From Saxibacter everestensis (lineage in GTDB: Bacteria; Actinomycetota; Actinomycetes; Actinomycetales; Brevibacteriaceae), in contig NZ_CP090958.1 of assembly GCF_025787225.1 (NCBI RefSeq), positions 3,024,550 through 3,088,549 on the forward strand: DNA of 64,000 bases. Direction: 5' to 3'. Positions 5,021 to 30,666 of this stretch are shown here, in pieces. Made by a program: the position numbers and the translations under genes. Positions within the stretch are counted from its first letter, which is position 1, and every line of letters starts with the position of its first letter. The notes under the pieces were generated by a model, which had not been told where the DNA came from, searched no databases, and saw only the letters and a list, made by a program, of their open reading frames with translations.

Positions 5021-5953
5021 TCAAGGAGTGCCATTCTGTTGGCGGTCGCCCGTCCGAGCCTCCTTTTCGCCGGCTGTCACCGCGATTGGCAAGACGTTGC
5101 TGGCAACCGGACGCGGGCAGGTTCCATACGGCGTGAATGAGAACGGGAAATTGATGCTGCGGTTGAAGTCGATCAGGACTTCGCCGTCCGGGTTCGGGAC
5201 GCCAATGCCGACGAAACGCCATTCTGCGGTCGAGTTGCCGTTGCTCCGGTCATAGAACGACAGGGTCAGACCGGACTCAGCAGTTCCGGTCGCGATCAGC
5301 GCGTGGCTAGTGCCGTTGAGCTCGAACTCCACCGTGCCGACCGTGGCGGCCTCGGTGTTCAGATCCCCGCGAGAAGTTCCGGTGCCCACCGGGCGGGATT
5401 CAGGATACGGCTGGAATCTGCCGGTCACTATCCAGTCCGGGTTGACGTCGAAGGCAGGCACGCCCGCAAAATTCACCCGGGTAGCCGCCTGCGGATCGCG
5501 AAGCCGGATGGCATAGCGTCCGCCGCGCCGGGCAACCTCGGCGACAACCGGCTGTGCGCCCACAGCTGCGGGCGCGCTCAGCCAATTCACCGAGCCGCCT
5601 TCTGGTACCGCAATCGACAGCTCGCCATCGACCGGCCGGTCTGCGCCGGACGGGTCGGCCGCAGCTGAACCGGCCGAACCGGCACCCGCCGCCCCTGCCG
5701 CCTCTGCACTCTCAGCAGAGCCCCGACGAAGCTGGACGACGGCATCCCCCGCCGACGCCGAGAACACGGCGCGTTCGCCATCCGTGCGCCACAGTCCGGG
5801 GAACCCAGCAATCGGCTCCGCCGATTCGCTCAACCAGCGAAAGCTGGTGAGGCTCAGCCAGCCGTAGGGCACCGAAAGGTCCGCCTCACGCCGGGCATGC
5901 CACTCCTCCCAGTCGCTGACCAGACCGGCTGTGCTGCTGCTTGTTACTGACAT
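5021..5953 (-). CDS. DUF1684 domain protein
   Basis: A 310-residue protein matching the DUF1684 pattern. The N-terminal half contains GWLSLTSFRWL, and the C-terminal third contains the diagnostic DFNRSINFPFSFTPYGTCP segment. An Ala/Gly/Ser-rich insert at about residues 82-108 looks like a flexible linker. The biochemical role of this family is not established. It is the last gene on the strand of the ABC/monooxygenase operon, 115 bp after the FAD/NAD(P)-binding gene, so it could be co-transcribed. Confidence 0.8.
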   Translation of the reverse strand: MSVTSSSTAGLVSDWEEWHARREADLSVPYGWLSLTSFRWLSESAEPIAGFPGLWRTDGERAVFSASAGDAVVQLRRGSAESAEAAGAAGAGSAGSAAADPSGADRPVDGELSIAVPEGGSVNWLSAPAAVGAQPVVAEVARRGGRYAIRLRDPQAATRVNFAGVPAFDVNPDWIVTGRFQPYPESRPVGTGTSRGDLNTEAATVGTVEFELNGTSHALIATGTAESGLTLSFYDRSNGNSTAEWRFVGIGVPNPDGEVLIDFNRSINFPFSFTPYGTCPRPVASNVLPIAVTAGEKEARTGDRQQNGTP

Positions 5954-6068: not shown

Positions 6069-8102
6069 TTAGGGCAGTCCCTCAAGCAGCCCGAGCAACT
6101 GCCGCGCGATGGCGTCGTTCTTCCGAAACACCGGAGCGTTGGTCTGCGGCCTGGCGAACGCCGCCTCGCCCGCACCGCCGGACACCGAAGGACCGATCAG
6201 AAACCGACGGTCATGGCTGGAACCGTCCGCCCGGATCGGATGGCTGTTGGCGTCGGCCACCAGCTTGGAACCGCGAGGCGCCCTGCTGTGCTCTGGCGGT
6301 TTCCAACCAGCGCCCTGGCCGCGGCGGGCCAGCTCCTTGACGCTATCGTCCTGCTCGACCAGCAGCTCACCGGCAACCAACAGGCCCTGGATAAGCGGAT
6401 CGGCGGCTCGTGCTGCCGAGCTTTCGGCGAGCCGCGCGTCCAGCAGTGCCCGCGCCTGAATCGGCTCCGGAATCGCCGGCGAGGCGGCTACGAACTCGCC
6501 GTTTTGCACAGTTACCGACAACTCCGGCCCGGCGAAGCGTACGATCCCGGCTCGATGCAAGGCAAGCAGCTGGCCGAGGCGTTCCGGCGGCGGCCCGCTG
6601 GCGATGAAGGAGAACAGCCCGTGCAGCCGGTGGTCGATCTTTTCGGTCCGGTCCTGCACGCCGAACCGGTTCTGCACAACCAGCTCCCGGATTCTGAAGT
6701 ACACGGCGAGCAGTGCGTTGAACACGGCGAGATCCGGAGAAAATCTGGGATCGGCACGCCGGTCGAGATCTGATTCGATGTACTCGACCAGGTGTTTTTC
6801 AAACTCCTCGCGATTAGCGGTGCGCAGGCCGTCAAAGGGACGATCGATGCCGCGCAGATCGAAGCGGTCCCGGGGATCAGGGACGACCCGCGAAACGTAC
6901 CCGGCGAACTCCTCGGAATTAGAGGCAGACGTTTCGACGCCTCGCCTGGGCCGAATCTGCTGCAGCCTACGCTCGAATTCCGGCCAGTCCGCTTCCACCC
7001 GGTCAGGATGCCGGCGCAGCAGTTCCTCGTAGTGCGCAAAGCACAGGTTCCAGTCGATCAAGGGCTCGATGTCCCTGTCGAAGTCAAGTACCTCAGCCGA
7101 TCCGGGCTCACACCCGAGACTTTCGTCGTCGAGAAACCTGGCATTCCCGCGCGGCAGACCGGGAATCTGATAGCCGAGTTTCGAGTGGTACGGGACTCCA
7201 CGGCCCGACCCCACCCAGAGGATCGGTTCCCTCCCGCTCGGCTGGTAGTTCAGCTGGCCGTCCACGATGTTGAACCGGCCGCCACGTCCTTCGGTGAGCA
7301 ACACCATCGCGTCGATAAAGGCAAGGCCGAAGCCGCGAGTGATCACCGGCTCCCGTTCCGGCACAATCGACAGGTCCACATCCGCTGTATACCCCGGCGG
7401 AACATAGACGAGGTCGTGCCGATCGGCAGCGTCCCTGAGCAGCGCCGTGCCGGAATCGGGCAGCATCTCGAGGTGCCCCTGCGCAAGCACAACGATGTCC
7501 GCACGAAGGATGGTGCCGGATTCCAGCTCGACGAGCTGCCGCCCGGTCGAATGGTCGCCAGCTGATCGATCGCCGGCCGAGTCGACACCGGCCGAATGGT
7601 CGCCGACCAGTCCGCCCGTCCGATCCGATTCAGTCAACCGCACAACCCGATCCCAATGGACTTCGAGGGAGAACCCCGCGGGCAAGTCGGCAACTGCCTG
7701 CTCGAAGGCCCAGCCGAGATAGAGCGACTGCAGGGCGCGGGACGGAAACGAGCGCGGAGTGAACGCCACCAGCTCGGCACCGAGCCCCGACGCAAGCACC
7801 CGCTCACGACCTTCGCCTACCACCCATTCGGCCAGGTTCGGGCCGTCTACGATCGGCCCCTCGATCTGCACCGAATCATCCAGGAAGATCGTGACGTCCT
7901 CAGCCATCGAATTCATCCATAGCAAGGGCGATTGCTGCCGCCGCCAGATCCGACCGCCGCCGGCCGGAAACGGATCCACGACATGCAGATCCGCTCCCGC
8001 GCCGGAGAAAAGGGACGGCGCATTCGCCGCCAGTCGCTCCAACAGGCCGGTGGTTCGTGGTCCGCCGCCAACGAACACCACGGTTGGACGTCGATAGGCC
8101 AC
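6069..8102 (-). CDS. FAD/NAD(P)-binding protein (NAD_binding_9 type)
   Basis: A large 677-residue flavoprotein-like enzyme. The dinucleotide-binding glycine motif VVFVGGGPRTTGLLERL is at residues 9-25, and a second Rossmann-like segment with IVVLAQGH is near residue 210. This architecture is that of the FAD-NAD(P)-binding family that accompanies luciferase-like monooxygenases in this type of operon. A short repetitive stretch of DHSAG-like units around residues 166-186 is probably a strain-variable linker. The start abuts the upstream monooxygenase gene with 2 bp between them. A role in oxidising the imported substrate is inferred from context. Confidence 0.8.
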   Translation of the reverse strand: MAYRRPTVVFVGGGPRTTGLLERLAANAPSLFSGAGADLHVVDPFPAGGGRIWRRQQSPLLWMNSMAEDVTIFLDDSVQIEGPIVDGPNLAEWVVGEGRERVLASGLGAELVAFTPRSFPSRALQSLYLGWAFEQAVADLPAGFSLEVHWDRVVRLTESDRTGGLVGDHSAGVDSAGDRSAGDHSTGRQLVELESGTILRADIVVLAQGHLEMLPDSGTALLRDAADRHDLVYVPPGYTADVDLSIVPEREPVITRGFGLAFIDAMVLLTEGRGGRFNIVDGQLNYQPSGREPILWVGSGRGVPYHSKLGYQIPGLPRGNARFLDDESLGCEPGSAEVLDFDRDIEPLIDWNLCFAHYEELLRRHPDRVEADWPEFERRLQQIRPRRGVETSASNSEEFAGYVSRVVPDPRDRFDLRGIDRPFDGLRTANREEFEKHLVEYIESDLDRRADPRFSPDLAVFNALLAVYFRIRELVVQNRFGVQDRTEKIDHRLHGLFSFIASGPPPERLGQLLALHRAGIVRFAGPELSVTVQNGEFVAASPAIPEPIQARALLDARLAESSAARAADPLIQGLLVAGELLVEQDDSVKELARRGQGAGWKPPEHSRAPRGSKLVADANSHPIRADGSSHDRRFLIGPSVSGGAGEAAFARPQTNAPVFRKNDAIARQLLGLLEGLP

Positions 8103-8104
8103 GG

Positions 8105-9181
8105 TTACCGCCTGGCGTACTGGTTCTGGGCGGCCGGCAGTCCCAGCCTCTGCCGCAGAGTCTCGGCGTCTGCCGCCTGCCCATCGAGCACCCCGGCTGC
8201 GCGAAGTGCCGGGATCAGCTCGTCAACAATTGCGGAGACACCGTCGTCGAGGCTGTCCGGAAGTAGGTGAAGGCCGTCGAGGCCGAGTCCGCGCCAACCG
8301 GCTGCTCGCTCGGAGAGATCGTGACCACCGGTAAACCCGCTACCAGCCCCGACCGCGGAATATCGCAGCGAGCCGAGTATCCGGACGTCCTGCGCTGAGC
8401 GTCCGGCCGCAACGATCGCGCGGCGCAGTTCGTCCAGTTTCCGGGGCAGGCTTTCAAGTTCCGGCTGGGCGTCGGAGATCGGAAGCAGCACTAGATCTGC
8501 GCATTGCGCGGCTACGTGCAGCGACGGTTCGTCGTCGACAGCGATCGTCACAACCGGGTTGCCCTGCGGCGGACGCGGGACGATGGATGGACCCTTCACA
8601 GTGAAGGTCTCCCCCACGCTGTCTGTTCCCTCGAAGTCGACATAGTGCACCTGGCCCAGGTCAAGGAAGCGACCGGTAGCCTGGTCGCGGATCTCCGCGC
8701 CTTCCTCCCACGAGTCCCAGAGCTTACGGACCACGTCGACGACCTCTGAGGCTTCCCGCCAGACGCTGTCGGAATCGGCGGCGCGTCGACGTCCGACGTT
8801 GCCGGCTTCACTCCCGGCTGTCGATACTCCGACCTGCCAGCCGGACCGTGCCCGCGCTGAATAGTCCAGCGTTGCGGTTGCGGTGCCGATCAGAAATGGT
8901 TCGGTGTGCGTCACGGTGACGGTCGGGATCAGGCCGATCCGCGACGTCTGCGGGCCGAGCCAGGAGAACAGATTCAGCGCATCCAGGCGAGCGTGAAACA
9001 CCGAGTCGTCGGGCGGGAGCGCATCCAGCGAATCGCCGAGCGTCAGCAGGTCGATGCCGGCGGCTTCAAGCCGTTGCGCAGCCCGGAGCTGGGTCGCACC
9101 GGAAAGCCGTTCGGCGACATCCTGCGGGCGGGTGCCGGCGGTGCCGATGTCGAGCCCCACACCGATAATAAAGTTCGTCAT
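8105..9181 (-). CDS. LLM class flavin-dependent monooxygenase
   Basis: A 358-residue bacterial-luciferase-like (TIM-barrel) monooxygenase, which should use FMNH2 supplied by a separate reductase. The family pattern is seen in IDLLTLGDSLDALPPDDS near residues 43-60, the RIGLIPTVTVTHTEPFLIG strand-loop and the SARARSGWQVGVST motif around residue 130. It resembles the KPN_01858-type monooxygenases found with a peptide-like ABC importer; that assignment is from memory of family layout. Its start overlaps the end of the reductase gene by 4 bp (ATGA), implying translational coupling. Confidence 0.85.
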   Translation of the reverse strand: MTNFIIGVGLDIGTAGTRPQDVAERLSGATQLRAAQRLEAAGIDLLTLGDSLDALPPDDSVFHARLDALNLFSWLGPQTSRIGLIPTVTVTHTEPFLIGTATATLDYSARARSGWQVGVSTAGSEAGNVGRRRAADSDSVWREASEVVDVVRKLWDSWEEGAEIRDQATGRFLDLGQVHYVDFEGTDSVGETFTVKGPSIVPRPPQGNPVVTIAVDDEPSLHVAAQCADLVLLPISDAQPELESLPRKLDELRRAIVAAGRSAQDVRILGSLRYSAVGAGSGFTGGHDLSERAAGWRGLGLDGLHLLPDSLDDGVSAIVDELIPALRAAGVLDGQAADAETLRQRLGLPAAQNQYARR

Positions 9182-10419
9182 GATGCTTCCTGCCTGAGTT
9201 CATCCGCCTGGTTATGGTCGTTCGTCTGGTCACGCTCTGCCCCGGCGATAGCCGGGTACAGCTCGCGGCTGAAGGCCAGCTTCTTCAACTGGTTCAGGTC
9301 CTCGTTCGGGTCGAAGAGCGGGGTGTAACCGGCTCGCAGGTACAGTTCCCTGGCTTCGGGCTGGCGGTTGCCCGTGGTCAGGAACAGCCGTCGGTAGCCG
9401 TACTCACGCGCCGCTGCCTCGAGCTCCGCCATCACGCGCCGGGCCAGGCCCTGGCGTCGATAGTTGGTAGCTGTCCACACCCGCTTAACCTCTGCGGTCC
9501 CGGTCTCGAAGGGCCGGATCGCTCCGCCGGCCACCGGTTGGCCGTCGTGCAGCAGCAGCACAAAAGTATCCGGCCGGTTCTCCTCCTCTTCCTGATGCAG
9601 TCCCTCCAGCGCGGTCCCAGGCGCGAACACGTAGCGACTGGAGTATTCGACCGCAAGCTCGCTGCGCAGCGGAACCAGCAACGGATCGTCCGGCGCAACC
9701 TTGCGCACCTCGAGGTCCTCGGCCGGCACCCGGGTGTGCCGGGCACGCGGTGCCGGCGGCTCGGGTCGTGCGGACGGCGGCTCGGGTCGTGCAGACGGCG
9801 CAATCGATCCAGGCCTTGGAGCTGCCAGCTCGGGTGCCGAAACCCTCGCGGATGCATCGCGATCCGCCGCGTCGACATCAAAGGGAGCACGCAGCCGCAA
9901 CTCGGCCAGGAACGACGTCGTCGTTTCCAGCACTGCCTGCGCAGCCGACGTTTCGAGAACGACGCCGCCATCCGGATAACTGGTGATGTCGGCCGAACGC
10001 ACGAACCGTCCCGCGCTGATACTGGTCGCCTCCAGAATGGACAGCAACGGTTTCAGCCCGAAATCCAGCGCCAGGACGTGCGCCGTCGAACCGCCGGTCA
10101 TCAGCGGCAGAACTGCTTTGCCGCTCAGCGCGGTCATGGGTAGCAGGTCGATGAACGACTTGAGCAGCCCGGAGTAGGTTGCCTTGTAGACCGGGCTGCC
10201 GATCACCACGCCATCTGCGTCGGTCAGGGCCTGGATAGCGTGCCGGATTTCCGGATCCGAAACGTCTGCCGCGAGCAGCGGCGTGGCTGGCAGGTCGCGC
10301 ACGCTGATCGCCTGCACGTCATGGCCCTGGCCGGCGAGCAGCCGGGTGACGTAGGCCAGCAGTGCATCGGTACGCGAGGGATTCGACGGGCTGCCGGACA
10401 GCGTGACTATCTTCGCCAT
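9178..10419 (-). CDS. NAD(P)H:FMN reductase (SsuE-like) fused to GNAT acetyltransferase
   Basis: A two-domain protein of 413 residues. Residues 1-175 are an SsuE/MsuE-like flavodoxin-fold FMN reductase (TLSGSPSNPSRTDALL at the phosphate loop; GSPVYKATYSGLLKSFIDLLP at the flavin site). It probably supplies FMNH2 to the two neighbouring monooxygenases. A Pro/Ala/Arg-rich linker (about 176-230) joins it to a C-terminal GNAT domain with VKRVWTATNYRRQGLARRVM, the acetyl-CoA pyrophosphate-binding motif. The fusion of these activities is unusual. The gene overlaps the downstream monooxygenase by 4 bp. Confidence 0.87.
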   Translation of the reverse strand: MAKIVTLSGSPSNPSRTDALLAYVTRLLAGQGHDVQAISVRDLPATPLLAADVSDPEIRHAIQALTDADGVVIGSPVYKATYSGLLKSFIDLLPMTALSGKAVLPLMTGGSTAHVLALDFGLKPLLSILEATSISAGRFVRSADITSYPDGGVVLETSAAQAVLETTTSFLAELRLRAPFDVDAADRDASARVSAPELAAPRPGSIAPSARPEPPSARPEPPAPRARHTRVPAEDLEVRKVAPDDPLLVPLRSELAVEYSSRYVFAPGTALEGLHQEEEENRPDTFVLLLHDGQPVAGGAIRPFETGTAEVKRVWTATNYRRQGLARRVMAELEAAAREYGYRRLFLTTGNRQPEARELYLRAGYTPLFDPNEDLNQLKKLAFSRELYPAIAGAERDQTNDHNQADELRQEAS

Positions 10420-10421
10420 GG

Positions 10422-11834
10422 TTAGCCTTCCTCTCTTTCGGTCTGCGCTGCTTCACGCCACTTTGCCCAGTCGGACTGTCCCCGGAAGCTGCCCAGGCCC
10501 AGGTTGTCGCGCAATGTTGTTCCGGAATACTCCGTGCGGTAGACGCCACGGTTCTGCAGTTCGGGCACGACCCGGTCGACGAATTCGTCCAGGCCGCCTG
10601 GGGTCAGATGTGGCACCAGGATGAAACCGTCAACCGCGCGCTGCTGCACGAAGTCGTCCAGTTCGGCGGCGATGGACGATGGCGTCCCGATGAATGACTG
10701 CCGAGCGGTGACTTGGATGACCAGCTCGCGGATCGAGAGCTTTCCGGCGTCAGCGATACCGCGCCATTCGGTGGCCGTGGCGCGAGGATCTTTGGTGTGG
10801 CGAACCCGTCCGCGGGTGATCGAGGTGTTGTCGAAGTCGAGTTCGATATCAGGCAGCGGACCATCGGGGTCGTAGCCGCTCAGGTCCCGGCCCCAGACCT
10901 GTTCGAGGAAGGCGATGGCGCCCTGTCCCGAGACCTGTTGCAACCTGACCTGGTCGGCCCGTTCTTCAGCCTCTTTCTGGCTGTCGCCGAGGATGAAGGT
11001 GACGCCGGGGTAGACCTTCAACTCATCTTCGCCTCGACCATACTTTGCCAGCCGGCGCTTGATGTCGGCGTAGAAGACCTTGCCATCCTCCAGCGTGCTG
11101 TGCCGGGTGAAGATGACATCGGCAGCGCCAGCCGCGAACTCGCGTCCGGCGTCCGAGTCACCGGCCTGAAACACAACCGGGTGCACCTGAGGGCTGCGCG
11201 GCACCGGGAAGCGGCCAGCGATGTCGAAGAACCTGGAGCGGTGCCTGTACAGTCCGGGATCGATGGCCCCGGCTATCGGCGCACCCGCTGCCCGAGTACC
11301 GGCTATCGACGCGAACTCCTCCGGCCACGATTCCCACAGCTCCCTCGCTGTCTGGATGAAGTCGTTGGCACGGCTGTAGCGGTCGGCGTATTCCAGGTAG
11401 CCGCCGCGTCGAAAGTTCTCGCCGGTAAACGCGTCATTTGTGGTGACCACGTTCCATGCCGCCCTGCCGCCGGAAAGGTGATCGAGGGTCGCCAGTTGAC
11501 GAGCAAGTTCGTAAGGCTCGTGATACGTCGCGCTCAAGGTTCCGGCCAGACCGATGTTCTGAGTCACCGCCGCCAGCGCGGAGAGCACAGTCAGGGTATC
11601 CGGTCGGCCGACCACGTCGAGGTCGAAGATCTTCCCTCGGTGCTCGCGCAGTCGCAGCCCTTCGGCCAGAAAGAAGAAGTCGAAGAGCCCGCGCTCGGCC
11701 GATTGCGCGAGATGCCTGAACGATTCGAACTCGATATGGCTGCCGCCGGCCGGATCCGACCAGACGGTGGTGTTGTTGACACCGGGAAAATGAGCCGCCA
11801 GGTGAACCTGGCGGCGCTCTGAAGTGTTTGGCAT
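10422..11834 (-). CDS. NtaA/SnaA/DszA-family FMN-dependent monooxygenase
   Basis: A 470-residue monooxygenase of the nitrilotriacetate/dibenzothiophene-sulfone branch of the luciferase-like group. Typical segments are RGLFDFFFLAEGLRLR near residue 48, GLAGTLSATYHEPYELAR near 94, and GRAAWNVVTTNDAFTGENF near 122. It would use FMNH2 and oxygen to cleave C-S or C-N bonds. The start overlaps the TAA of the upstream ABC ATPase (TAATG). The partner reductase is probably the fusion protein immediately downstream. Confidence 0.87.
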   Translation of the reverse strand: MPNTSERRQVHLAAHFPGVNNTTVWSDPAGGSHIEFESFRHLAQSAERGLFDFFFLAEGLRLREHRGKIFDLDVVGRPDTLTVLSALAAVTQNIGLAGTLSATYHEPYELARQLATLDHLSGGRAAWNVVTTNDAFTGENFRRGGYLEYADRYSRANDFIQTARELWESWPEEFASIAGTRAAGAPIAGAIDPGLYRHRSRFFDIAGRFPVPRSPQVHPVVFQAGDSDAGREFAAGAADVIFTRHSTLEDGKVFYADIKRRLAKYGRGEDELKVYPGVTFILGDSQKEAEERADQVRLQQVSGQGAIAFLEQVWGRDLSGYDPDGPLPDIELDFDNTSITRGRVRHTKDPRATATEWRGIADAGKLSIRELVIQVTARQSFIGTPSSIAAELDDFVQQRAVDGFILVPHLTPGGLDEFVDRVVPELQNRGVYRTEYSGTTLRDNLGLGSFRGQSDWAKWREAAQTEREEG

Positions 11835-13645
11835 TAGTGTGCTCCCACTGGCTGGTTACTCTGCTGCTGGACCGCAAGCTGCTGATCTGTGATTTTCTGC
11901 CCATCTCCGAGTTGCTGTCCGGGGATAGCACCCAGGAGCCGGGCAGTGAATTCGGTCTGCGGATCTGTGAAAATCTGCGCGGTGGTGCCCTGTTCCACGA
12001 TCTTTCCGCCGGCCATCACGGCGACCCGATCTGAAATCTGCCGCACGACGGCCAGGTCGTGTGAAATGAACAGGTAGCTCAGCCCCAGCTCGACCTGCAG
12101 ATCGGTCAGCAACTGCAGAATCTGGGCCTGCACGGAAACGTCGAGCGCCGAGACCGGCTCATCGAGAACCACTAGTTCCGGCCGCAACGCCAAAGCCCGC
12201 GCGATCGCGACCCGCTGCCGCTGCCCGCCGGATAGCTCACGCGGAGTACGGGCCAGCGTTGCAGCGGGAAGTGCCACCTCATCGAGCAGTTCGATGGCGC
12301 GTATCCGGCGTGCCTTCCGGTCGCCCTGCCTGAAGGCGCGCAATGGCTCGGTGACGATCTGTTCGATCGTGAAGCGCGGATCCAGCGATGCATACGGATT
12401 CTGGTAGACGAACTGCGCGCTGCGCCGGAAGTCCCGCAACTCGCCGCGAGAGAGAGAACGAACGCTCAGTTCGCTTGTTACGTTGCCCTTCGCAGGCCTG
12501 GATAGCGCCGCGGTTGCGGATGCCGCAGCAACCCCGGATGGCGCCGCGGTTGCGGACCCGTTCCCGGATCCACTCCCGTTCCCGAACTCAGTCCCGGCGC
12601 CTCGGAACGTCACCTTCCCCGCGGTCGCCTGCTCCAGGCCGAGCACAAGGCGCGCCGTCGTGGACTTCCCAGAGCCGGATTCCCCGACGATGCCGAGCGT
12701 GCCGTGCCGAGGAACCTCGAACGACACGTTATCGACGGCGAGCGCGCCGGCAGAGTGCCTGTTGCCGAAGTCTTTGACCAGCCCGGTCGCCGAGAGGATC
12801 GCTCCCCGAGGCGCGGTGACAGCCGAACTTGCCGGTATGGCTGGCCGAAGCCGGGCGCTGTTCAGGCTCGGCGCCGCAGCCAGCAACTTCCGGGTGTACG
12901 GATGCTGCGGGTCGGCGAAAACCTCGTCTGCAGCGCCGGCCTCGACAACCCGACCGGACTGCATAACCATCAGCCGGTCGGCGCGGTCGGCGGCAACTCC
13001 GAGATCGTGAGTCACCAGGAGGACTGCGGTGCCGGTCTCCCGGGTGAGTTTGCCGAAGTGGTCGAGCACCTGGCGCTGTACGGTGACGTCCAGCGCGCTC
13101 GTCGGTTCGTCCGCGACAACCAGGGAAGGCTTGCCGGCCAGGGCGATGCCGATCAATACGCGCTGCCGCAGGCCACCGGATAGTTGATGCGGAAAGAGCG
13201 AGCTGTAGTACTCCGGGTCGGGAAGTCCGACGCTGTCGAGCACCTCGACCGAGCGGGCTCGTGCCTCGCGTTTCGGTATCCCATGCACTGTGAGCGCCTC
13301 GGTCACCTGGCTGCCGATTGTCTTTACCGGATCGAGCGAGGCACCTGGGTCCTGCGGGACGAATCCAATCCGACGTCCCCGTAGCGCGCGCCACGTCTTT
13401 TCGTTTGCCCCGCGCAGGTCTTCGCCCTCGAACTCAAGTACGTCGGCATCCACCCGTGCGTTTCCGGCCAGCAGGCCGACCAGTGCGTCGGCGGTGGTTG
13501 ACTTCCCGGAACCGGATTCGCCGACGATGGCAACCGTCTCCGCCTCGCGTACCTCGAGGTCGACGTCGTTGACGGCGTCGACCCGGCCACTGCGGGTCAG
13601 GTAGCTGACCGCCAGATGGCTTAGCTTCAGCAGCGGCCTGCTCAT
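11834..13645 (-). CDS. ABC transporter ATP-binding protein, two fused ATPase domains (DppD-DppF type)
   Basis: A 603-residue cytoplasmic protein carrying both ATPases of an oligopeptide/nickel-type importer. Each half has a Walker A motif (VGESGSGKSTT, twice), an ABC signature (LSGGLRQRV and LSGGQRQRV) and a Walker B motif (VADEPTSALD and LDEPVSALD). A Gly/Ala/Ser-rich loop interrupts the second domain after its Walker A. I chose the ATG at 13645 (MSRPLLKLSH) because it overlaps the permease stop by 4 bp. The longer frame upstream is only arginine-rich read-through of the permease. Confidence 0.92.
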   Translation of the reverse strand: MSRPLLKLSHLAVSYLTRSGRVDAVNDVDLEVREAETVAIVGESGSGKSTTADALVGLLAGNARVDADVLEFEGEDLRGANEKTWRALRGRRIGFVPQDPGASLDPVKTIGSQVTEALTVHGIPKREARARSVEVLDSVGLPDPEYYSSLFPHQLSGGLRQRVLIGIALAGKPSLVVADEPTSALDVTVQRQVLDHFGKLTRETGTAVLLVTHDLGVAADRADRLMVMQSGRVVEAGAADEVFADPQHPYTRKLLAAAPSLNSARLRPAIPASSAVTAPRGAILSATGLVKDFGNRHSAGALAVDNVSFEVPRHGTLGIVGESGSGKSTTARLVLGLEQATAGKVTFRGAGTEFGNGSGSGNGSATAAPSGVAAASATAALSRPAKGNVTSELSVRSLSRGELRDFRRSAQFVYQNPYASLDPRFTIEQIVTEPLRAFRQGDRKARRIRAIELLDEVALPAATLARTPRELSGGQRQRVAIARALALRPELVVLDEPVSALDVSVQAQILQLLTDLQVELGLSYLFISHDLAVVRQISDRVAVMAGGKIVEQGTTAQIFTDPQTEFTARLLGAIPGQQLGDGQKITDQQLAVQQQSNQPVGAH

Positions 13646-14646
13646 GATGTGCCTTCCCTTGATTGCAGAGTTCGCGACAGCTGATTCGCGGCGAGTACGA
13701 CGGCGACAACGACGAGGCCGGGTAACGTCGTCAGCCACCACGCGCTCGCCAGGAAGTCCCGTCCTTCGGCAACGAGCAGACCCCACTCGGGCTGGGGTGG
13801 AGGCGCACCGAAACCGAGGAAGCTCAGCGATGACACGGCGAGTACCGCGGTGCCGAACTCGAGGGCGGCAAGCGCCAGAACCGGGCCGGCGGCGTGCGGC
13901 AGGACGTGGCGGATGATCACCGTGCCGGTACGGACACCGGAGGCGGTAGCGGCCTCGACGAACGTGGCGTTCTTCCAGCGGATCACTTCGCCCCTGGACA
14001 GTCGTGCGAAGGAAGCCACTGCGGCGATTCCGACCGCGATCGCCACGTTGACCGTTCCGAAGCCCAACGCGGTCACGATCGCCATTGACAACAGCAGGCC
14101 TGGAATCGCCATCAGGACATCGACTATTCGCATCAGGATGTCGTCGACCCGGCCGCCGAAGAAACCTGAGATCAGGCCGATCACGACACCGACCACCAAG
14201 GAAATGGCGACCGCGATCAGGGTTGCTCGCAGCGACAATGACGAACCGTGAATCATCCGGGCCAATACGTCCCGCCCGAGTTGGTCGGTGCCGAACAGGA
14301 ACTCGGCAGACGGCGGCCGCAACCGGGCAGCCGGATTTCCCGTGATCGGGTCGGCGTCGGTGAACAGGGTCGGCACGAGCGCCCAGGCCAGCACGACGGC
14401 CAGGACGGCGACTGAGACGATCGAAGCCGACTTGCGGAGGAACCGGAAACTGCCGATGCTCGACGTCCGCCCCGTCCGCTGTCGCGCGGCGGGATTCCCC
14501 GGATAGTTCCCGCCAGCCGTTTCAGCCGGGTTTTGCTTCGAGGTTTCGGGTGCGAACGCAGACGGCCGTTCGGTTGAGCTGCTGATGCCCTCGGTCACGA
14601 TGCCGCCGGGGCTCGCGATCCGATCCCGGAGGTTGGTTTGAGTCAT
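13642..14646 (-). CDS. ABC transporter permease, DppC/OppC type
   Basis: A 334-residue inner-membrane permease. After an unusually long hydrophilic N-terminus (about 75 residues) it shows a hydrophobic segment near 78-95, then the OppC-like N-terminal motif RPPSAEFLFGTDQLGRDVLAR. The cytoplasmic EAA loop reads EAATASGVRTGTVIIRHVLP, which contacts the ATPase. About six membrane helices are present. Coupled by 4-bp overlaps to both neighbours. Probably forms a heterodimer with the permease encoded upstream. Confidence 0.92.
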   Translation of the reverse strand: MTQTNLRDRIASPGGIVTEGISSSTERPSAFAPETSKQNPAETAGGNYPGNPAARQRTGRTSSIGSFRFLRKSASIVSVAVLAVVLAWALVPTLFTDADPITGNPAARLRPPSAEFLFGTDQLGRDVLARMIHGSSLSLRATLIAVAISLVVGVVIGLISGFFGGRVDDILMRIVDVLMAIPGLLLSMAIVTALGFGTVNVAIAVGIAAVASFARLSRGEVIRWKNATFVEAATASGVRTGTVIIRHVLPHAAGPVLALAALEFGTAVLAVSSLSFLGFGAPPPQPEWGLLVAEGRDFLASAWWLTTLPGLVVVAVVLAANQLSRTLQSREGTS

Positions 14647-15734
14647 GGGATGTCCTTTTCCTGTGCCGTAACGAGCGCGAGTTCAATCGACCGGCTGGGC
14701 GTGCAGGCCGGTGCTTGTGTGCGAAGCCGAGGATCGAGCAGCGGATAGACCAGGTCAACCAGCAGGTTCACGCTCACGAAGATCAGCGCGGCAAGCAGCA
14801 CAACGCCCTGAACCACGGGAATGTCCTGCGAACCGACCGAAGCCTGCGCGAGCCGCCCGACCCCGTCCCGGGAGAACACCGTCTCGGTGACGACCGAACC
14901 GGCCAGCAGGTTGCCGACGATCACCCCGGTCATGGTCAGAGCAGGAATCGCCGCATTATGCAGCGCGTGCCGGGTGAGCAGCCCGAGCCGACTCAGCCCT
15001 TTCGCTCTGATCGCGCTGATATACGGCTGGTTCCAGGCACCCGCCAAGGATCTGGCCAGCACCTGGGCGATGGTCGCCGCGGTGGGGACGGCCAGAGTAA
15101 TCGCCGGAAGTACCAGTGACTTGATCCCCTCGGAGCCCATTGCCGGAAAGATCTGATGGCGGAAGGACAGGAACTGCAGGAGCACCAGCCCCAGCCAGAA
15201 CGATGGGATTGAGATCCCCAGCGACGGTGCCGACAGCAACAGATTCCTGAGCCAACGGCGCTGGCTGTAGGTCGCCGCGACCGCGAGGCTCACCCCGGCC
15301 ACAACCGCGAGCACAATTGCCGCTCCGGTGAGTTGCGCCGTCAGCGGCAGTGCCTGCGCGATTGCCGCGGTCACCGGCTGGCCGGTCTGGATCGACGTGC
15401 CCAGATCAAAGGTCAGCGCCTTGCCCAGCGCGATGGCGTACTGAACGACCAGCGGCTTATCCAGGTTGTACTCCGCCCGCAGCGCCTCGGCTTGTGCTGG
15501 ATCGACTGCTCCTTGTTCCCCGCCGTTGTTCAGCATGATCGCGACCGGATCACCGGGCAGCAGGAACAGGATGAGATAGCTGACAGTGAATGCCGCCCAG
15601 AGCACGACCAGCGACTGGCCAAGCCGGGCGAGCAGCCTGCGTCCCGTCGTCCGGGCCGCCGACTGGCGAACCGACGTTACCGTCGCCGGCCGGCCTTCCG
15701 ACTTCCCACGTCGCAGGGTTGATGGGGCCATCAC
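14643..15734 (-). CDS. ABC transporter permease, DppB/OppB type
   Basis: A 363-residue permease with the DppB/OppB layout: first membrane helix with LLFLLPGDPVAIML downstream at about residues 57-70, and an EAA-like loop near SAIRAKGLSRLGLLTRHALHN. About six hydrophobic segments are visible. A basic N-terminal extension precedes the first helix. Start and stop each overlap the neighbouring genes by 4 bp. It is the second transporter gene after the substrate-binding protein. Confidence 0.92.
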   Translation of the reverse strand: MMAPSTLRRGKSEGRPATVTSVRQSAARTTGRRLLARLGQSLVVLWAAFTVSYLILFLLPGDPVAIMLNNGGEQGAVDPAQAEALRAEYNLDKPLVVQYAIALGKALTFDLGTSIQTGQPVTAAIAQALPLTAQLTGAAIVLAVVAGVSLAVAATYSQRRWLRNLLLSAPSLGISIPSFWLGLVLLQFLSFRHQIFPAMGSEGIKSLVLPAITLAVPTAATIAQVLARSLAGAWNQPYISAIRAKGLSRLGLLTRHALHNAAIPALTMTGVIVGNLLAGSVVTETVFSRDGVGRLAQASVGSQDIPVVQGVVLLAALIFVSVNLLVDLVYPLLDPRLRTQAPACTPSRSIELALVTAQEKDIP

Positions 15735-17365
15735 TTCGCTGCCAGCCAGGTGTCATAGAACTGGAAACGTGAGGACGCTTCGAAGCGAAAACCGTGCACG
15801 TTCTTCGCCGTCGCTACCACCCCGGAAAGCTCGACCAGCGGGATCGAATGACCGTCTCGGATCAACAGGCTGGTGGCCTCGGCGACGAGTTTCCGGCGCT
15901 TGTCCTGATCGAGGGTGCCCTGACTTTGATCAAGCAGCTCGTCCACTTTGCCCGGCTTGCGGTAGTTGACGTTCCGGCCACCGGCGTGGAACACCGTCCG
16001 GACGATGTCCGGATCTGCCCGGGTCAGGTTGTAGAACTGGAACTCGAACTCACCGGTCTGCTGCAGGCTGCTGACCTCGTCGATAGTGGTCTTGTCCAGT
16101 TTCAGATCGAAACCGATCTGGCGCAGCTGCTGTTGCACCAGCTCGAGGAACGGCGCGTCCTGCCAGTAGGTGACTTTCACCGACAGCTTCTTGCCGTTCT
16201 TCTCCCGGATCCCGTCGGACCCCTCGGTCCAGCCTGCCTCCTCCAGCAACGCCTTGGCGCCATCCGGATCGAAGACCAGAGCCTCGGACTGATCCTGATA
16301 CAGCGGCGTCGACTTGGCCAGAGCCGAACTCGCCGGGGCCTGATGGGCGGAAAGAACCGAGGCGAGCTCCTGCCGGTTGATCCCCTTGTTGATGGCCTGG
16401 CGCACCCTGAGGTCACCGCCGATCGGTTTGGATTCGTTGGCGAAGAGGTTGTAGACGACGCCCGGGTTGGCCCGGGAAATCACCGGAAAGTCACCGGCTT
16501 CCAGGTTCGCCTCATCCTGGGCCTGAACCGCGGTGTCCAGGTCGACCTGCCCGGAGATCAGGCTGCCGTTACGCACCGAGGCTTCGGGCGTGATCGAGAT
16601 GTCGATCCCATCGAGGTAGGCGGCGCCCTCGTGGTCCGAAAGCTCCGATGGCCAGTTGTAATCATCGTTCCGCTTGAGCTTCACCGACTGGTTGTGTGTG
16701 AACGATTCCAGGGTGAAGGGGCCCGAACCGATGACCTCGCCCTCGCAACGCTGCTCCGGAGACACCTGCAGCGTGGCGTTCGCGTAGATGCCGAGCGTCA
16801 TCGTGGATGTAGCCTGCAGGAACTGCGCGTTCGGCTTGGCGAATGTGACCGCGACGGTCGAATCATCCGGAGTCTCGATCGTGTCGAGACCGGCCAGGTA
16901 GGTCGAGCCGAGGGTGGACTTCGCGCCGAGGTCAACTATGTTCTCGAAGTTCGCCTTGACCGATTCGGCATTGAACGCTGTGCCGTCGGAGAACTTCACA
17001 TCGTCGCGTAGTGCAAATGTGAAACTGGTTGAGTCGTCACTGACTTCCCAGCTTTTCGCCAACCAAGGGGTTATTTTTCCGGACTTCGGATCCTGGTCGG
17101 TCAGCGAATCGACGACCTGACGGGAAACATTCAGCGCGGTGTTGTTTCCAACCTGCTGACCGTCGAGGCACTTCGGGTCGCTGTCGTAGGCGACCCTCAG
17201 GGTGCCACCCTTTTGCGGCTTGTCACCGGACGCCGGCTTAGCAGTGTTCGCGCCGCCGCAAGCGACAAGGGCAAGAACGGCAATGGTGGCGGCGGCACCG
17301 CCGGCCGCCCGGATGACGGCGCGCTTACCGCGGCTGCCGGACGTGGGTGTGGGGACGAGGGGCAT
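15731..17365 (-). CDS. ABC transporter substrate-binding lipoprotein (SBP_bac_5)
   Basis: A 544-residue peptide/nickel-type binding protein anchored by a lipid. The signal peptide ends in the lipobox LALVAC with Cys36 as the acylated residue. A linker follows, then the family 5 binding domain beginning KGGTLRVAYDSDPKCLDGQQ. It is the first structural gene of the operon and presumably sets its specificity. Together with downstream monooxygenases the arrangement resembles the KPN_01854-type cluster (family name recalled, not searched). The ATG at 17365 follows a clear AGGAGAA ribosome site. Confidence 0.92.
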   Translation of the reverse strand: MPLVPTPTSGSRGKRAVIRAAGGAAATIAVLALVACGGANTAKPASGDKPQKGGTLRVAYDSDPKCLDGQQVGNNTALNVSRQVVDSLTDQDPKSGKITPWLAKSWEVSDDSTSFTFALRDDVKFSDGTAFNAESVKANFENIVDLGAKSTLGSTYLAGLDTIETPDDSTVAVTFAKPNAQFLQATSTMTLGIYANATLQVSPEQRCEGEVIGSGPFTLESFTHNQSVKLKRNDDYNWPSELSDHEGAAYLDGIDISITPEASVRNGSLISGQVDLDTAVQAQDEANLEAGDFPVISRANPGVVYNLFANESKPIGGDLRVRQAINKGINRQELASVLSAHQAPASSALAKSTPLYQDQSEALVFDPDGAKALLEEAGWTEGSDGIREKNGKKLSVKVTYWQDAPFLELVQQQLRQIGFDLKLDKTTIDEVSSLQQTGEFEFQFYNLTRADPDIVRTVFHAGGRNVNYRKPGKVDELLDQSQGTLDQDKRRKLVAEATSLLIRDGHSIPLVELSGVVATAKNVHGFRFEASSRFQFYDTWLAAK

Positions 17366-17781
17366 GTCGTTCTCCTGGAAAGGTCAATGACGTGGACTGT
17401 CGGCTGGCGGGGACATATTCGCGAACTCGACGCTCGGATGCGGACGCAGCGGTGACGACGCTCGGATGGACGGCCTGGCTGGCAGACGGCGGATCGGCAG
17501 CTCGCGCCGGTTCGGATCGGGGCTGCCGTGCAGACAGCTTCGGCGCGGCGCCGGTCGGACTCAAAGCGGCTTCGGCGCGGCGCCGGTCAGGTTCGAAGCT
17601 GCTTCAGCGCTGCACTGGTTCTGCCCGACGCTCGATCAGCTCGGCTAATAACGGATGCCGCGAACCGGGCGGGCGGCGGCGCGCAGTGCCGCAGGCCAGC
17701 AGCGCCGCGCGGGCGCAGCAGGGAAATCCCGCTTCGCCGGATCAGGTCGACCGGACACTATCCGCCGCGGTCGTCAGCAGC
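17366..17781 (-). other. Long 5' leader between the leader peptide and the ABC operon
   Basis: About 416 bp without a supported gene, probably transcribed as the operon leader. It contains GC-rich direct repeats (17537-17588) and would have to hold any attenuator structure. I see no run of T that would make a canonical intrinsic terminator on the minus strand. Confidence 0.4.
17537..17620. repeat. 32-bp-period direct repeats in the operon leader
   Basis: GCTTCGGCGCGGCGCCGGTC occurs at 17537-17556 and again, identical, at 17569-17588. A third, diverged unit follows with GCTTCAGCGCTGC. Each unit contains the palindrome GGCGCGGCGCC-like core. They may form alternative hairpins in the leader RNA. 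Confidence 0.5.
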
Positions 17782-17895
17782 CTAGCTGGAGGCTTGCGGG
17801 CGACGCAGTGAGCAGCAAAGGGACGACAGGCAACAGTCCAGGGCTTCGAAGCGTGAAGCGAGCGCCCAGATCTGTGAGTTGTTGCGTGCTGTCAT
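17782..17895 (-). CDS. Cysteine-rich leader peptide (putative attenuator)
   Basis: A 37-residue ORF on the minus strand upstream of the ABC/monooxygenase operon. It starts at an ATG at 17895, five bases after a good AAAGGA ribosome site, and ends at a TAG at 17782-17784. The peptide contains DCCLSSLCC, two adjacent Cys pairs near residues 20-28. Actinobacterial sulfur genes are often preceded by short Cys-rich ORFs whose stalled translation at low cysteine raises downstream expression. The composition, position and nature of the operon fit that mechanism; function is inferred. No membrane helix or known domain is present. Confidence 0.6.
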   Translation of the reverse strand: MTARNNSQIWALASRFEALDCCLSSLCCSLRRPQASS

Positions 17896-17911
17896 CGGGT
17901 TCCTTTGCGGT

Positions 17912-17930
17912 TGAGACCTGCCGGGTCTCA
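17912..17930. promoter_or_regulatory. Perfect 7-bp inverted repeat upstream of the leader peptide
   Basis: TGAGACC-TGCCG-GGTCTCA lies 17 bp upstream of the leader peptide start. It could be a repressor operator or an RNA hairpin close to the ribosome site. Which of these applies cannot be read from the sequence. Confidence 0.45.
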
Positions 17931-17990
17931 TTGGCTGACAATTGAAACTTAGTTGTCGGGTTCCTGCCCACGCAAACACCGGCGTCATCC

Positions 17991-18007
17991 CCCGTCACAT
18001 TGACGGG
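17991..18007. promoter_or_regulatory. Perfect 7-bp inverted repeat (operator candidate)
   Basis: CCCGTCA-CAT-TGACGGG is a perfect palindrome with a 3-nt centre, about 95 bp upstream of the leader peptide and 137 bp downstream of the end of the amidohydrolase gene at 18144. It may be an operator for the ABC operon or, less likely, a transcript-end hairpin. Confidence 0.4.
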
Positions 18008-27773: not shown

Positions 27774-28064
27774 TTAGTCGGCTGGGGTGAGATACACCTT
27801 GCGCAGCGGCTCGGTTACGGTCCACCAGGTCTGTGTGCCCGCCGCCAGTCGGACGATGTCGCCCGGTTTCAGCGACAGCGTCTGCTTACCTTCAGCGTAG
27901 GCGGGCGAGGCGGCGGGAATGTGTACCGTGCCGCGCTCGTCCGTAGCCGTGATCGCGTTACTGTCCCTGTGCACGGCGGCGCGCTCAAGGTAAAGAAACG
28001 ACATCCGATCCTCGGCGCGGACCAGTTCGGGGATGCTGGGCGGCGGCGGCCCTCCGCCAGTCAT
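27774..28064 (-). pseudogene. cas1: cas1 (type I-E) truncated and fused to a cupin tail
   Basis: The first ~52 residues are the N-terminus of a type I-E Cas1 integrase (IPELVRAEDRMSFLYLER, then HRDSNAITATDERG). Intact Cas1e is about 300 residues and carries its metal-binding catalytic residues further downstream; all are missing here. From codon 54 the frame continues in PAYAEGKQTLSLKPGD and on to the stop. That is the C-terminus of the cupin gene at 39072, in the same frame. The start overlaps cas6e by 4 bp. The chimera cannot integrate spacers. Confidence 0.85.
27787..27906. repeat. Left 120-bp direct repeat flanking the CRISPR-Cas cassette
   Basis: This segment matches 39085-39204 in the same orientation at 118 of 120 positions; the differences are at 27848-27849. 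It derives from the 3' end of a cupin gene. Identity ends exactly at the point where cas1 is interrupted. Confidence 0.95.
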
Positions 28065-28717
28065 TCGGGCGGAGATGCGAGCGTGATCAGCCCGCAGCCG
28101 TATCCCTTCGCCCGGCCCAGTCCGTTGATCAGAGTGCCCACGAACCGCTCACGATCCGTCACCCGAAGCACGCCATCGAATCGTGCGATCCGCAAGGTGA
28201 CCGTCGACTCTCCTCGCCTGAACTTGAGCGTGTCACGCTTCGTGATTGCGACGGCAGGCGACTTATCCGCCGTGGTGGGGATCTCGAATCCTGCCACCTC
28301 CGATCGGTCGAGCAGCCATTGTTCCTGCTGGGCGGCGGTGACATGTCCGACCGGTTTGCCCCGGGTAGCGCCCTCCGAGCGAATGTTGCGCACCGGGTTG
28401 GCCGTGAGCCGGAAGGCCCAGGTCTGGCCGACGGAGATCCTCGACAACAGCGGCTGGTAGTCCCTGGTCAGCCAGGATTGGGTTGTCGGCCAGCCGGCCT
28501 GTTCCACGAGGTGCGTCAGATCGGGTCGGCGCGGACTCGCAATGTAGAGTGTCGCGCGGTCCCCGTCGGCGTCCAAGCGCCACAGTACCCGGCCTTGCTC
28601 TCCCGGCGGGGACGGCGGAAATCCAGACTCCACCGCAGCGTGCATGGCGTGCGGGGATGTGAGCAACTTCGCAGCCCCGCGTCGCCTTGGGTTGATGTCG
28701 AACCTGGTCAGAAACAT
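28061..28717 (-). CDS. cas6e: Type I-E crRNA endonuclease Cas6e
   Basis: A 218-residue RAMP endoribonuclease that cuts the repeat hairpin to release crRNAs and stays bound in Cascade. The N-terminus MFLTRFDINPRRR and the segment SPHAMHAAV align with characterised Cas6e proteins, putting the catalytic His at residue 26. The C-terminal glycine-rich loop reads GLGRAKGYGCGL. The ATG directly follows the cas5 stop without a gap, and the end overlaps truncated cas1 by 4 bp. It appears intact. Confidence 0.94.
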   Translation of the reverse strand: MFLTRFDINPRRRGAAKLLTSPHAMHAAVESGFPPSPPGEQGRVLWRLDADGDRATLYIASPRRPDLTHLVEQAGWPTTQSWLTRDYQPLLSRISVGQTWAFRLTANPVRNIRSEGATRGKPVGHVTAAQQEQWLLDRSEVAGFEIPTTADKSPAVAITKRDTLKFRRGESTVTLRIARFDGVLRVTDRERFVGTLINGLGRAKGYGCGLITLASPPE

Positions 28718-29506
28718 TTACGCCTCCTCCATCAACGGAGCCATCGGGTCATGCCCCTCACCCTGGGCCGGTCGCTCCGGGGTCGGCACCTCCGGGTCCG
28801 GCGCGTTCGGGTCCAATCCGGACGGTGGCGACCCTCCTTCATTAGGTTTTCCCCATGGGTTCGACAACGTCACGGATCCGGCACCGATGTCGCGCCATCC
28901 GTACTCGCGTCGCCGCTGGTCGAAACTGATCGGGACGTCCCGCTGCGTCTGAGCACCCGGCGTGCCGGCGGGAACGTCGATGAGAAACGGAAGGTTCACG
29001 GCCGCGGCCTCCTGCGACCGTTGATGGCGCTCGCTGGCCTGCCAGTCATGCGCAGCAAAGGCCTGCTCGAGCGAGGCATCGACTAACTCGGTCTTCAGTG
29101 GCCCGGCGGGCGGAAAGGCACGCCGGCCGAGGAAGAGCGGAAAGTAAGGCCGCTGCAGGGCGCTTTTCAACTCGGCCAGGTAGCCGCGGTCCTCTGATTC
29201 CACTCCGGCGAGGAACACAGCATCCTGCAGGAAGGCCCGGTGCGACAGCGGCATCGAGGTCTTCCCGTCGAGGGTTCTGGCGGTCTGGAAATCGACAGCG
29301 ACGGAGCCGGGCTGATCGATCCGGACACCGAACCGCAGGGTCATGAGCTTGCCCAGCGGGGCAGAGCGTTCCAGGCCGGATGCCGCCGCCAAGAGCCCGA
29401 TCACCCCGCTTTTCGTTGGGGCCAGGTCCGTCGCCCTACTAGCCCAGCGACTGCCTGACCCCCATGCCTGCATGGGTCCGGCCAGCTTGAACAGCAGCGA
29501 GGTCAT
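28718..29506 (-). CDS. cas5e: Cascade subunit Cas5e
   Basis: A 262-residue RAMP protein that caps the 5' handle of crRNA. The start MTSLLFKLAGPMQAWGSGSRWASRATD is the classical Cas5 N-terminus (pattern: LAGPMQAWG, then PTKSGVIGLLAAA near residue 32). The C-terminal tail is longer than usual and Pro/Gly-rich, without a known role. Its ATG overlaps the cas7 stop by one base. It appears intact. Confidence 0.94.
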   Translation of the reverse strand: MTSLLFKLAGPMQAWGSGSRWASRATDLAPTKSGVIGLLAAASGLERSAPLGKLMTLRFGVRIDQPGSVAVDFQTARTLDGKTSMPLSHRAFLQDAVFLAGVESEDRGYLAELKSALQRPYFPLFLGRRAFPPAGPLKTELVDASLEQAFAAHDWQASERHQRSQEAAAVNLPFLIDVPAGTPGAQTQRDVPISFDQRRREYGWRDIGAGSVTLSNPWGKPNEGGSPPSGLDPNAPDPEVPTPERPAQGEGHDPMAPLMEEA

Positions 29507-30666
29507 CAGGACTCCGTCGTGCCGGTGCCCTGCGACAGGCGGTCGGACACCACCTCGCCGACCTGGACGACCAGTTCCGGCAACGTCACCGTTGTGCCAA
29601 GGTCCTGCAGCTCGCTGGTAGCGTCACCGACTCGCACCACCCACGAATTCACCGGCGTGGTGCCGAAGCTGGTGTCGACGTTCTTGGCGTGTTCCACAAG
29701 CTTTCGGCTGGCCACCTTGAGCCTCGCGGGCTCCTCCACCGCCTGCTCGAACGCGCCGACCAGGTTGACCGACTGAGTGTCACGCACGCTGACCACGACT
29801 CCGTCGGGCAGCGTGCGGTTGGCAAATGTATTCTGCTTACCTGTGGGCATCGAGGTGGCGAATGCCTCGACGAATGCCTGCACGGCGCGAACCGTGGCCT
29901 GGCCATCGTCCAGATTGTCGAGCAAGCGATCCACATCGATTGTGGCGTACCGATACAGCGTCGAGGAGTTGAATTCGACGGTGCCGATCATGCCGGCTCC
30001 GGCGTCTTCTTCCTCATCGAGATTCTTGTGGTCATCGACGGCGGTGTAGTAGTCGAACTCGGTCTCCACGGCATGGACGCTGAGCGCATGAGCCACCTGG
30101 GCCGCGGCGTCGACGTTCAGATCGGTGACGTCGGCGACCATCCGGCCGAACAAGGCGATGTCGACCGAATGCTCACGGTCGATGGCCTTCGTCAATCCGG
30201 CGTCCTTCAGCGCTTTTCGTGGATCGTCGGTGGCGTTGGCGGCAACCGCCGCGTCGGCCAGCCTGTCGAGTTGACGTCCGCTGAGGAACACCAGGTAACC
30301 CGCCTCGTCCGGCAACGGTTCGGTCTCACTCTTCCGCGTCTTCTTAAGCTTGATGCCCTTCTTGCCGAGTGCGGCGAAGGCTTGCTTGGCCAGGTCCTGT
30401 GCCTGACGGGAATCGATGGAAGGATTCTGCGCCGTGATCCGGTCGGCGAGCAGCTCCACGATCCGCTTGGTTCGCACGCCGAGTTCCTTCGGGTCGAGCC
30501 GGCTATTGAACGCGAGCCTCGTCGCGCGCTTCCAGGCCTGGCTGGACACGCGGGCACGCCTGGTCCCGCCGAACACGGCGGTCTTTGGGCTGCCCGTGTC
30601 GTCCCGATTGATGTTGCTCGGCGGAACAGTCTGCAGGATGTGGATGTCGACTATGGTGCGGGACAT
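29506..30666 (-). CDS. cas7e: Cascade backbone subunit Cas7e (CasC/Cse4)
   Basis: A 386-residue protein that forms the six-copy crRNA-binding filament of Cascade. Recognised by the N-terminal HILQTVPPSNINRDDTGSPK and RRARVSSQAWKRATR segments and a central EFNSSTLYRYATIDVD motif. Length and motifs are normal. It begins 36 bp after cse2 and its stop overlaps the start of cas5 by one base. Confidence 0.95.
   Translation of the reverse strand: MSRTIVDIHILQTVPPSNINRDDTGSPKTAVFGGTRRARVSSQAWKRATRLAFNSRLDPKELGVRTKRIVELLADRITAQNPSIDSRQAQDLAKQAFAALGKKGIKLKKTRKSETEPLPDEAGYLVFLSGRQLDRLADAAVAANATDDPRKALKDAGLTKAIDREHSVDIALFGRMVADVTDLNVDAAAQVAHALSVHAVETEFDYYTAVDDHKNLDEEEDAGAGMIGTVEFNSSTLYRYATIDVDRLLDNLDDGQATVRAVQAFVEAFATSMPTGKQNTFANRTLPDGVVVSVRDTQSVNLVGAFEQAVEEPARLKVASRKLVEHAKNVDTSFGTTPVNSWVVRVGDATSELQDLGTTVTLPELVVQVGEVVSDRLSQGTGTTES

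Follow-up and report, generated by a model that had tools for sequence, protein, structure and literature searches.

Eight tightly packed genes of one strand, several of them overlapping by a few bases, lie downstream of a short leader ORF in the window, the 64,000-nucleotide stretch of Saxibacter everestensis DNA that was analysed (Table 1). The leader encodes the peptide MTARNNSQIWALASRFEALDCCLSSLCCSLRRPQASS. Pfam and NCBIfam scans confirm the arrangement that the original prediction had read from the letters, a leader ahead of an operon with two luciferase-like monooxygenases, an SsuE-like reductase and an importer. The 37-codon ORF with a good ribosome site that it had proposed is likewise real, and the interval first marked, 17782-17930, consists of this ORF and its upstream region. 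An alternative in-frame ATG at 17988, giving 68 amino acids, was rejected because conservation starts only at 17895; in several relatives an in-frame stop lies at most about 25 codons upstream of the equivalent start. The leader is the sole ORF with at least four Cys in ten residues among 101 start sites of the window, which comprise ATG and GTG starts on both strands of ORFs of 15-60 codons behind ribosome-site-like sequence, nested starts being counted separately.

Table 1 Features of the leader and operon region (window coordinates).
Feature	Position	Strand	Basis or remark
TGTGACG-N5-TGACG	17983-17999	minus	sole copy in the window
ATTGTCAGCCAAT, possible counterpart of ATTGTTGAGCAAT	17930-17942	minus	weak, loose: arms only
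Inverted repeat GAGACC-CGGCA-GGTCTC	17913-17929	minus	just upstream of the ribosome site
Shine-Dalgarno-like AAAGGA	17901-17906	minus	sequence; 5 bases between AAAGGA and leader ATG
Leader ORF, 37 codons + TAG	17782-17895	minus	ATG at 17895, stop ends at 17782; conserved in 21 genomes
Codons 6-21, conserved stretch NSQxWALxxRFEALDC	17833-17880	minus	leader alignment
Cys21 codon TGT	17833-17835	minus	TGT in 20 of 21 leaders
Tail with Cys codons 22, 27 and 28 (all TGC), unconserved	17812-17832	minus	sequence and leader comparison
Gap from leader stop to first gene, 416 nt	17366-17781	minus	C 38%, G 32%; terminator scan negative
ABC importer solute-binding protein, SBP_bac_5 (family 5)	15731-17365	minus	nearest TIGR04028, below its cut-off
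ABC permease	14643-15734	minus	4-nt overlap with the solute-binding-protein gene
ABC permease (second)	13642-14646	minus	family scan
Two-domain ABC ATPase	11834-13645	minus	listed ORF start 13786; 13645 is the likely start
NtaA/DmoA-family FMN monooxygenase	10422-11834	minus	best solved relatives (structures) YtnJ/MoxC
SsuE-type FMN reductase fused to GNAT acetyltransferase domain	9178-10419	minus	family scan
Second luciferase-like monooxygenase	8105-9181	minus	family scan
FAD/NAD(P)-binding protein (NAD_binding_9)	6069-8102	minus	family scan

The first monooxygenase scores 394.7 bits against TIGR03860, above the curated cut-off of 279.7, and the second reaches 177.6 bits, below it. The operon is well kept in the 16 Brevibacterium relatives that have the binding protein: in 12 of them the window's eight genes are all matched, and in order, three loci (L099, L102 and L107) lack only the SsuE match and keep the other operon genes, and the comparison is incomplete at L101, where the contig ends early. 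The GNAT domain was found in none of the 16 relatives' loci compared. The operon is followed by a DUF1684 gene (5021-5953, minus strand), whose 310-residue product has one Cys and no internal Met, being sulfur-poor like the operon proteins, and which is possibly a ninth operon gene. Homologues of the first monooxygenase lie at a locus separate from the leader in Rothia (L155) and Kocuria (L156); the gene in L156 is followed by a second monooxygenase and an FAD/NAD(P)-binding gene, and adjoins a rhodanese gene.

Several independent grounds assign this hitherto uncharacterised importer/monooxygenase operon to sulfur supply, the role first suggested for it. The eight operon proteins contain 29 Cys and Met in 3801 residues (0.76%) as compared with 2.76% in the other window ORFs (Fisher 8e-16), a control set chosen by a simple script and including some doubtful ORFs. 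Taken with no background for the relatives, the operons of the 16 Brevibacterium relatives hold 0.66-0.98% Cys and Met (0.14% in the first monooxygenase), and Rothia and Kocuria, for which the importer genes only were counted, are less sulfur-poor at 1.43 and 1.26 per 100. PMC8557817 describes sulfur-sparing protein use under sulfate starvation in Rhodococcus. Sulfur amino-acid genes also stand behind the leader in relatives. In genome G754 two such genes come after the leader and importer genes, one O-acetylhomoserine sulfhydrylase-like (below cut-off) and the other for a cystathionine gamma-synthase (above cut-off). Downstream of the variant leader of G062 stand a gene with a weak monooxygenase match and one resembling cystathionine gamma-synthase (slightly below cut-off). 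Further support comes from other Cys-ended leaders before related importer operons and from a Brevibacterium motif by a nitrite/sulfite-reductase gene, both described below. The operon would import an organosulfur compound and free its sulfur, and the imported substrate is plausibly an S-substituted cysteine or peptide. CmoJ and YtnJ are taken here to be one protein. As in the CmoJ/YtnJ S-alkylcysteine salvage of Bacillus subtilis, a YtnJ/MoxC relative, an acetyltransferase domain and an FMN reductase occur together in the operon; in contrast, the importer here is of the peptide/nickel type. The acetyltransferase and the flavin monooxygenase of the salvage set are present by family, and no deacetylase was found among the nine genes scanned. 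According to PMC10863075, CmoJ releases cysteine from S-alkylcysteine after acetylation.

The leader, NSQxWALxxRFEALDC or a slight variant (hereafter RFEALDC), occurs in 21 genomes, namely 18 of the Brevibacterium family, the window genome included, together with Rothia, Kocuria and G754. A binding-protein search of 59 genomes, again including the window genome, revealed close orthologues (55-63% identity) in nine other family genomes, and the leader is present in all nine. Similarly, a profile search of 60 family genomes gave 18 strong leader matches; 17 of these genomes match the binding protein at E 1e-100 or better, in every case with the leader upstream of the binding-protein gene. G062 has the leader and no binding-protein match at E 1e-100; otherwise the leader set equals the binding-protein set. 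Scanning the GTDB collection with a degenerate pattern returned 16 hits: 13 in Brevibacterium, one each in Rothia koreensis and Kocuria sp. 36, and one in Paraburkholderia (L121), the last a chance match, out of frame within another ORF, that was left out of the counts. Rothia koreensis, Kocuria sp. 36 and G754 likewise carry the leader ahead of the gene for the binding protein, the G754 copy, found by an order-wide search of 396 genomes, being one silent base away from that of Kocuria sp. 36. The order search gave 11 strong leader matches and four weak ones (G541, G416, G517 and G575). The G541 match, with a stop codon at the Cys position, was taken as chance, and no leader was seen at the G416 locus (L066), which is among the class-search loci scanned by motif expressions. 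The class search (394 genomes) returned the window genome and 26 genomes with 28 weak matches, the best at 4.4e-4; no leader was seen in the 16 of these 28 loci scanned with motif expressions (matches listed for eight), and the best of the weak matches (L064) reads WAARFEALDC out of frame inside a longer ORF. No leader was credited in a plasmid search, in which a single Alteromonas hit at E 10 was disregarded. None of the papers searched contained RFEALDC, and the literature searches brought up no paper that, judged by title and opening of the abstract, describes such a leader class.

Three RFEALDC peptides gave no NCBIfam hit at E 10, NF042934 (cut-off 27 bits) included. The NF042934 leaders, of the HVDL type, resemble RFEALDC in being short, in carrying a Cys near the end, mostly encoded by TGT, and in preceding sulfur genes, but RFEALDC has no sequence match to NF042934. 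Profile-profile comparison of RFEALDC with HVDL, both profiles being short and thin, found nothing, and kinship between the two was dropped on that result. Twenty paralogous or distant binding-protein loci (L014-L033) comprise 13 with an HVDL-like leader, such as MLWRRLHIDLKRLTSSNC, two with another Cys-ended leader and five with none recognised. One HVDL-like paralogue leader of Brevibacterium scores 30.8 bits against the NF042934 cut-off of 27, and a genome search placed two leaders of paralogous importers above it. In L026 and L032 (Brevibacterium) a Cys-ended peptide with the terminal sequence PSAAPAMSA[NY]C, which resembles neither HVDL nor RFEALDC, precedes a paralogous importer, and in L152 (G004) the paralogous importer operon combines an HVDL leader with a TIGR04027 monooxygenase and TIGR04029/TIGR04030 alkylhydroperoxidase-type domains. 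The window genome's own paralogous binding protein (L150) has neither an RFEALDC nor an HVDL motif. Elsewhere in that genome, an HVDL-type leader above the NF042934 cut-off (L126, 1500-1557; 1411981 in the genome) lies upstream of a symporter-like gene; it was rejected as a Cys leader, having no Cys before its stop.

At greater distance, the order-wide search matched the binding protein at E 1e-100 in 50 of 396 genomes, among the matches listed. The 19 next-best orthologue loci outside the leader-bearing genomes, again among the matches listed, show 42-52% identity, and 11 of them have Cys leaders, five HVDL-like (all in genus g166) and six VVDL-like (all in genus g17); no Cys leader was recognised at the remaining eight, one of which belongs to G754's family. 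Four of these distant HVDL/VVDL-like peptides were scanned against NCBIfam and none reached a cut-off, three of the four giving sub-threshold hits to NF042934 or to the mycobacterial Ms4527A and Ms5788A families. The last Cys codon is TGT in all 15 Cys-ended leaders of paralogous importers (13 HVDL-like, two other), in six of seven NF042934 family hits (two shared with those 15) and in 10 of the 11 distant HVDL/VVDL-like leaders. Cys-ended leaders of differing class thus stand at related importers, which indicates that a Cys-ended leader is often kept while its sequence class depends on the lineage, the swapping of classes resting on a small number of independent lineages. Judged by these comparisons, RFEALDC is most likely a new sequence class among Cys-responsive leader peptides, themselves a known kind. 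Mycobacterial poly-Cys leaders were reportedly treated by Canestrari in 2020. The Cys-rich Ms4527A and Ms5788A leaders of mycobacteria share with RFEALDC a Cys-bearing leader ORF; in contrast, RFEALDC has one invariant Cys, a conserved 16-residue core, an upstream ribosome site and no NCBIfam match. The cys leaders predicted for Mycobacterium, P. acnes and Bifidobacterium in PMC1262725 are without conserved terminators, and Rho is a weak prediction there. The RFEALDC leaders are similar in being candidate leaders without conserved terminators, whereas the leaders of that paper carry consecutive Cys codons close to the stop and stand before other genes.

Short motifs flank many of the leaders. 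In 12 of 20 leaders, that of the window genome included, an element like TGTGACG-N5-TGACG starts 102-110 bases ahead of the start codon. ATTGTTGAGCAAT starts 75-77 bases ahead of that codon in 11 of the 20, and TGTTGAGCAAT recurs about 195-243 bases past the start of ATTGTTGAGCAAT-bearing leaders in 10 of the 20; nine leaders, the window genome's among them, have neither. TGTTGAGCAAT has 26 sites in four Brevibacterium genomes (6, 6, 7 and 7; loci L159-L185) and one in the window genome, and its reversed control pattern has zero occurrences in the same genome search. Eight of the 26 sites flank the leader. In all four Brevibacterium genomes TGTTGAGCAAT also precedes a nitrite/sulfite-reductase gene and a paralogous importer operon (the latter with two sites in G015) and lies beside the gene of an SDF-family symporter; two sites are next to OsmC-family genes and one is next to a TauE-family gene, and at L167 and L174 no such neighbour was identified. 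For the linked reductase the nearest family is ferredoxin-nitrite reductase, below cut-off, so that it may not be a sulfite reductase; the linked symporter is nearest to DctA, also below cut-off, and the sulfur role of both is putative. By its neighbours, TGTTGAGCAAT is a candidate sulfur-regulon operator in Brevibacterium.

The gap between leader and importer was inspected for signs of termination. No intrinsic terminator was found in the window region, the 416-nt gap included in the scan, nothing in the window reached the Rfam gathering thresholds, and the consensus fold has seven pairs, none with a two-sided (compensatory) change. Folds of the three Micrococcaceae-like leaders (Rothia, Kocuria and G754), made on pieces that end before the importer gene, were no better than shuffled. 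The combination of intrinsic terminator and alternative hairpin that marks a classical attenuator was thus not found by terminator scan and folding. By eye, a palindrome and then CTTTTC directly follow the leader stop in the close relatives L092 and L093, a feature not seen in the other leaders of the alignment that contains them. The inverted repeat just upstream of the window ribosome site recurs in none of the upstream 60 bases of 19 other leaders, and a 20-base direct repeat with a GGCGCC core was noted by eye within the gap (17537-17556 and 17569-17588). The leader stop is separated from the beginning of the binding-protein match by 86 bases in Rothia and 98 in Kocuria, and from the gene start by 416 in the window. 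The C/G ratio of the gap, for which there is no control set, is 1.18 in the window, 1.08 in Rothia, 1.22 in Kocuria and 1.31-1.77 in Brevibacterium, a C-richness that is only compatible with Rho. As neither a conserved intrinsic terminator nor a conserved fold emerged, termination of the Rho type appears likeliest.

Selection on the leader is concentrated in codons 6-21, for which 21 leaders (210 pairs, kinship ignored) give pS 0.548, pN 0.072 and pN/pS 0.13, as compared with pN/pS of 1.5 and 3.2 in the shifted frames. Synonymous changes thus exceed replacement changes, the pattern of a selected ORF (kinship ignored), and the leader looks translated. Leu12 is encoded by five codons and Arg15 by three (20 leaders), and the variants are NTQ in two leaders and RFEVHDC in G062. 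In contrast, codons 22-24 are under no constraint (pS 0.657, pN 0.572; 21 leaders). Cys21 is invariant among the 21 leaders and is encoded by TGT in 20 of them, although long ORFs of the leader-bearing loci prefer TGC (701) to TGT (204) (binomial estimate 1.9e-12, kinship ignored). The tail Cys codons are 15 TGC and 6 TGT. The original prediction had placed the sensor in two Cys-Cys pairs and proposed their conservation in relatives as a check; the single Cys21 is conserved and the pairs are not, residue 22 being Cys in seven of 21 leaders, a further CC pair occurring in two (the window genome and G076) and seven having no Cys besides Cys21. Between Cys21 and the stop lie 3-16 residues, three in Rothia, Kocuria and G754. 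Of the 223 tail residues (21 leaders), 60 are Cys or Met, but frame +1 of the same bases also holds 39 Cys, so that the enrichment is not clean and only the excess of Met stands (39 in frame, 0 and 1 in the two shifted frames), an excess partly due to one clade. The conservation of NSQxWALxxRFEALDC with one mostly-UGU Cys indicates that the peptide sequence itself matters. A mere tally of Cys codons does not explain this conservation, and a single invariant Cys codon would be unusual for an attenuator that counts codons.

The leader is probably a cis-acting, Cys-responsive RFEALDC peptide at which a ribosome halt on UGU21 would spare the sulfur-scavenging operon from early termination. When Cys-tRNA is scarce, the ribosome would halt with UGU codon 21 in its A site, and the conserved nascent chain (NSQxWALxxRFEALD), by then inside the exit tunnel, may make this single-codon halt effective. 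The halted ribosome would protect the transcript against early loss within the untranslated gap, allowing importer and monooxygenases to be made, while under ample cysteine the ribosome would finish and leave, and the operon would be off. Cysteine, as first supposed, is the likely signal.

The near-fixed residues 6-21, whose codons vary synonymously, and the end of conservation at Cys21 would also suit an arrest peptide, in which binding of free cysteine or another sulfur metabolite would cause the nascent chain to stall the ribosome, Cys21 being required as a part of the chain and not for its codon; the TnaC nascent chain stalls the ribosome with tryptophan in this manner. This reading is unlikely, as the prevalence of TGT both at Cys21 (20 of 21) and at the last Cys of the other leader classes indicates decoding. 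A classical poly-Cys attenuator, with consecutive Cys codons metering Cys-tRNA and the other residues as filler, is suggested by CC at 21-22 and 27-28 of the window leader and by the mycobacterial poly-Cys leaders that are documented according to citing papers (PMC9094748, PMC13236596). It is improbable, given that no run of Cys codons is conserved among the 21 leaders, that codons 6-21 are constrained and that neither a terminator nor compensatory pairing was found in the window scan and consensus fold. A small functional protein, or the precursor of a peptide product with a conserved leader and a variable Cys/Met-rich core, would account for the conserved N-terminal part and for the variable, Cys- and Met-bearing tail. 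It is very improbable, with the Rothia, Kocuria and G754 peptides ending three residues past Cys21, a transporter that is an importer because it includes a solute-binding protein, a scan of nine genes that turned up no family for peptide maturation, and other Cys-ended leaders in the equivalent place in other genera. A chance ORF, to which the shortness of the leader might point, is refuted by the 21-genome comparison with its pN/pS of 0.13 against 1.5 and 3.2 in shifted frames, and has practically no likelihood left.

Returning to a Cys-responsive halt on UGU21, a broader reading is put forward tentatively: RFEALDC may be a further, sequence-unrelated class of Cys sensor, in which the nascent chain would let one UGU replace runs of Cys codons, the classes having been swapped before related importer operons with nearly all keeping UGU over UGC. 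If true, UGU would be the code word for cysteine shortage in actinobacterial leaders. The RFEALDC family is compact and unmatched in NCBIfam, and its residue conservation, near-fixed codon and class swapping are open to simple reporters; it could show whether sensing of cysteine by a single codon needs a specific nascent chain. Elsewhere in the window, ORFs at 28061-30666 on the minus strand presumably resemble, as judged by eye, type I-E CRISPR Cas proteins.
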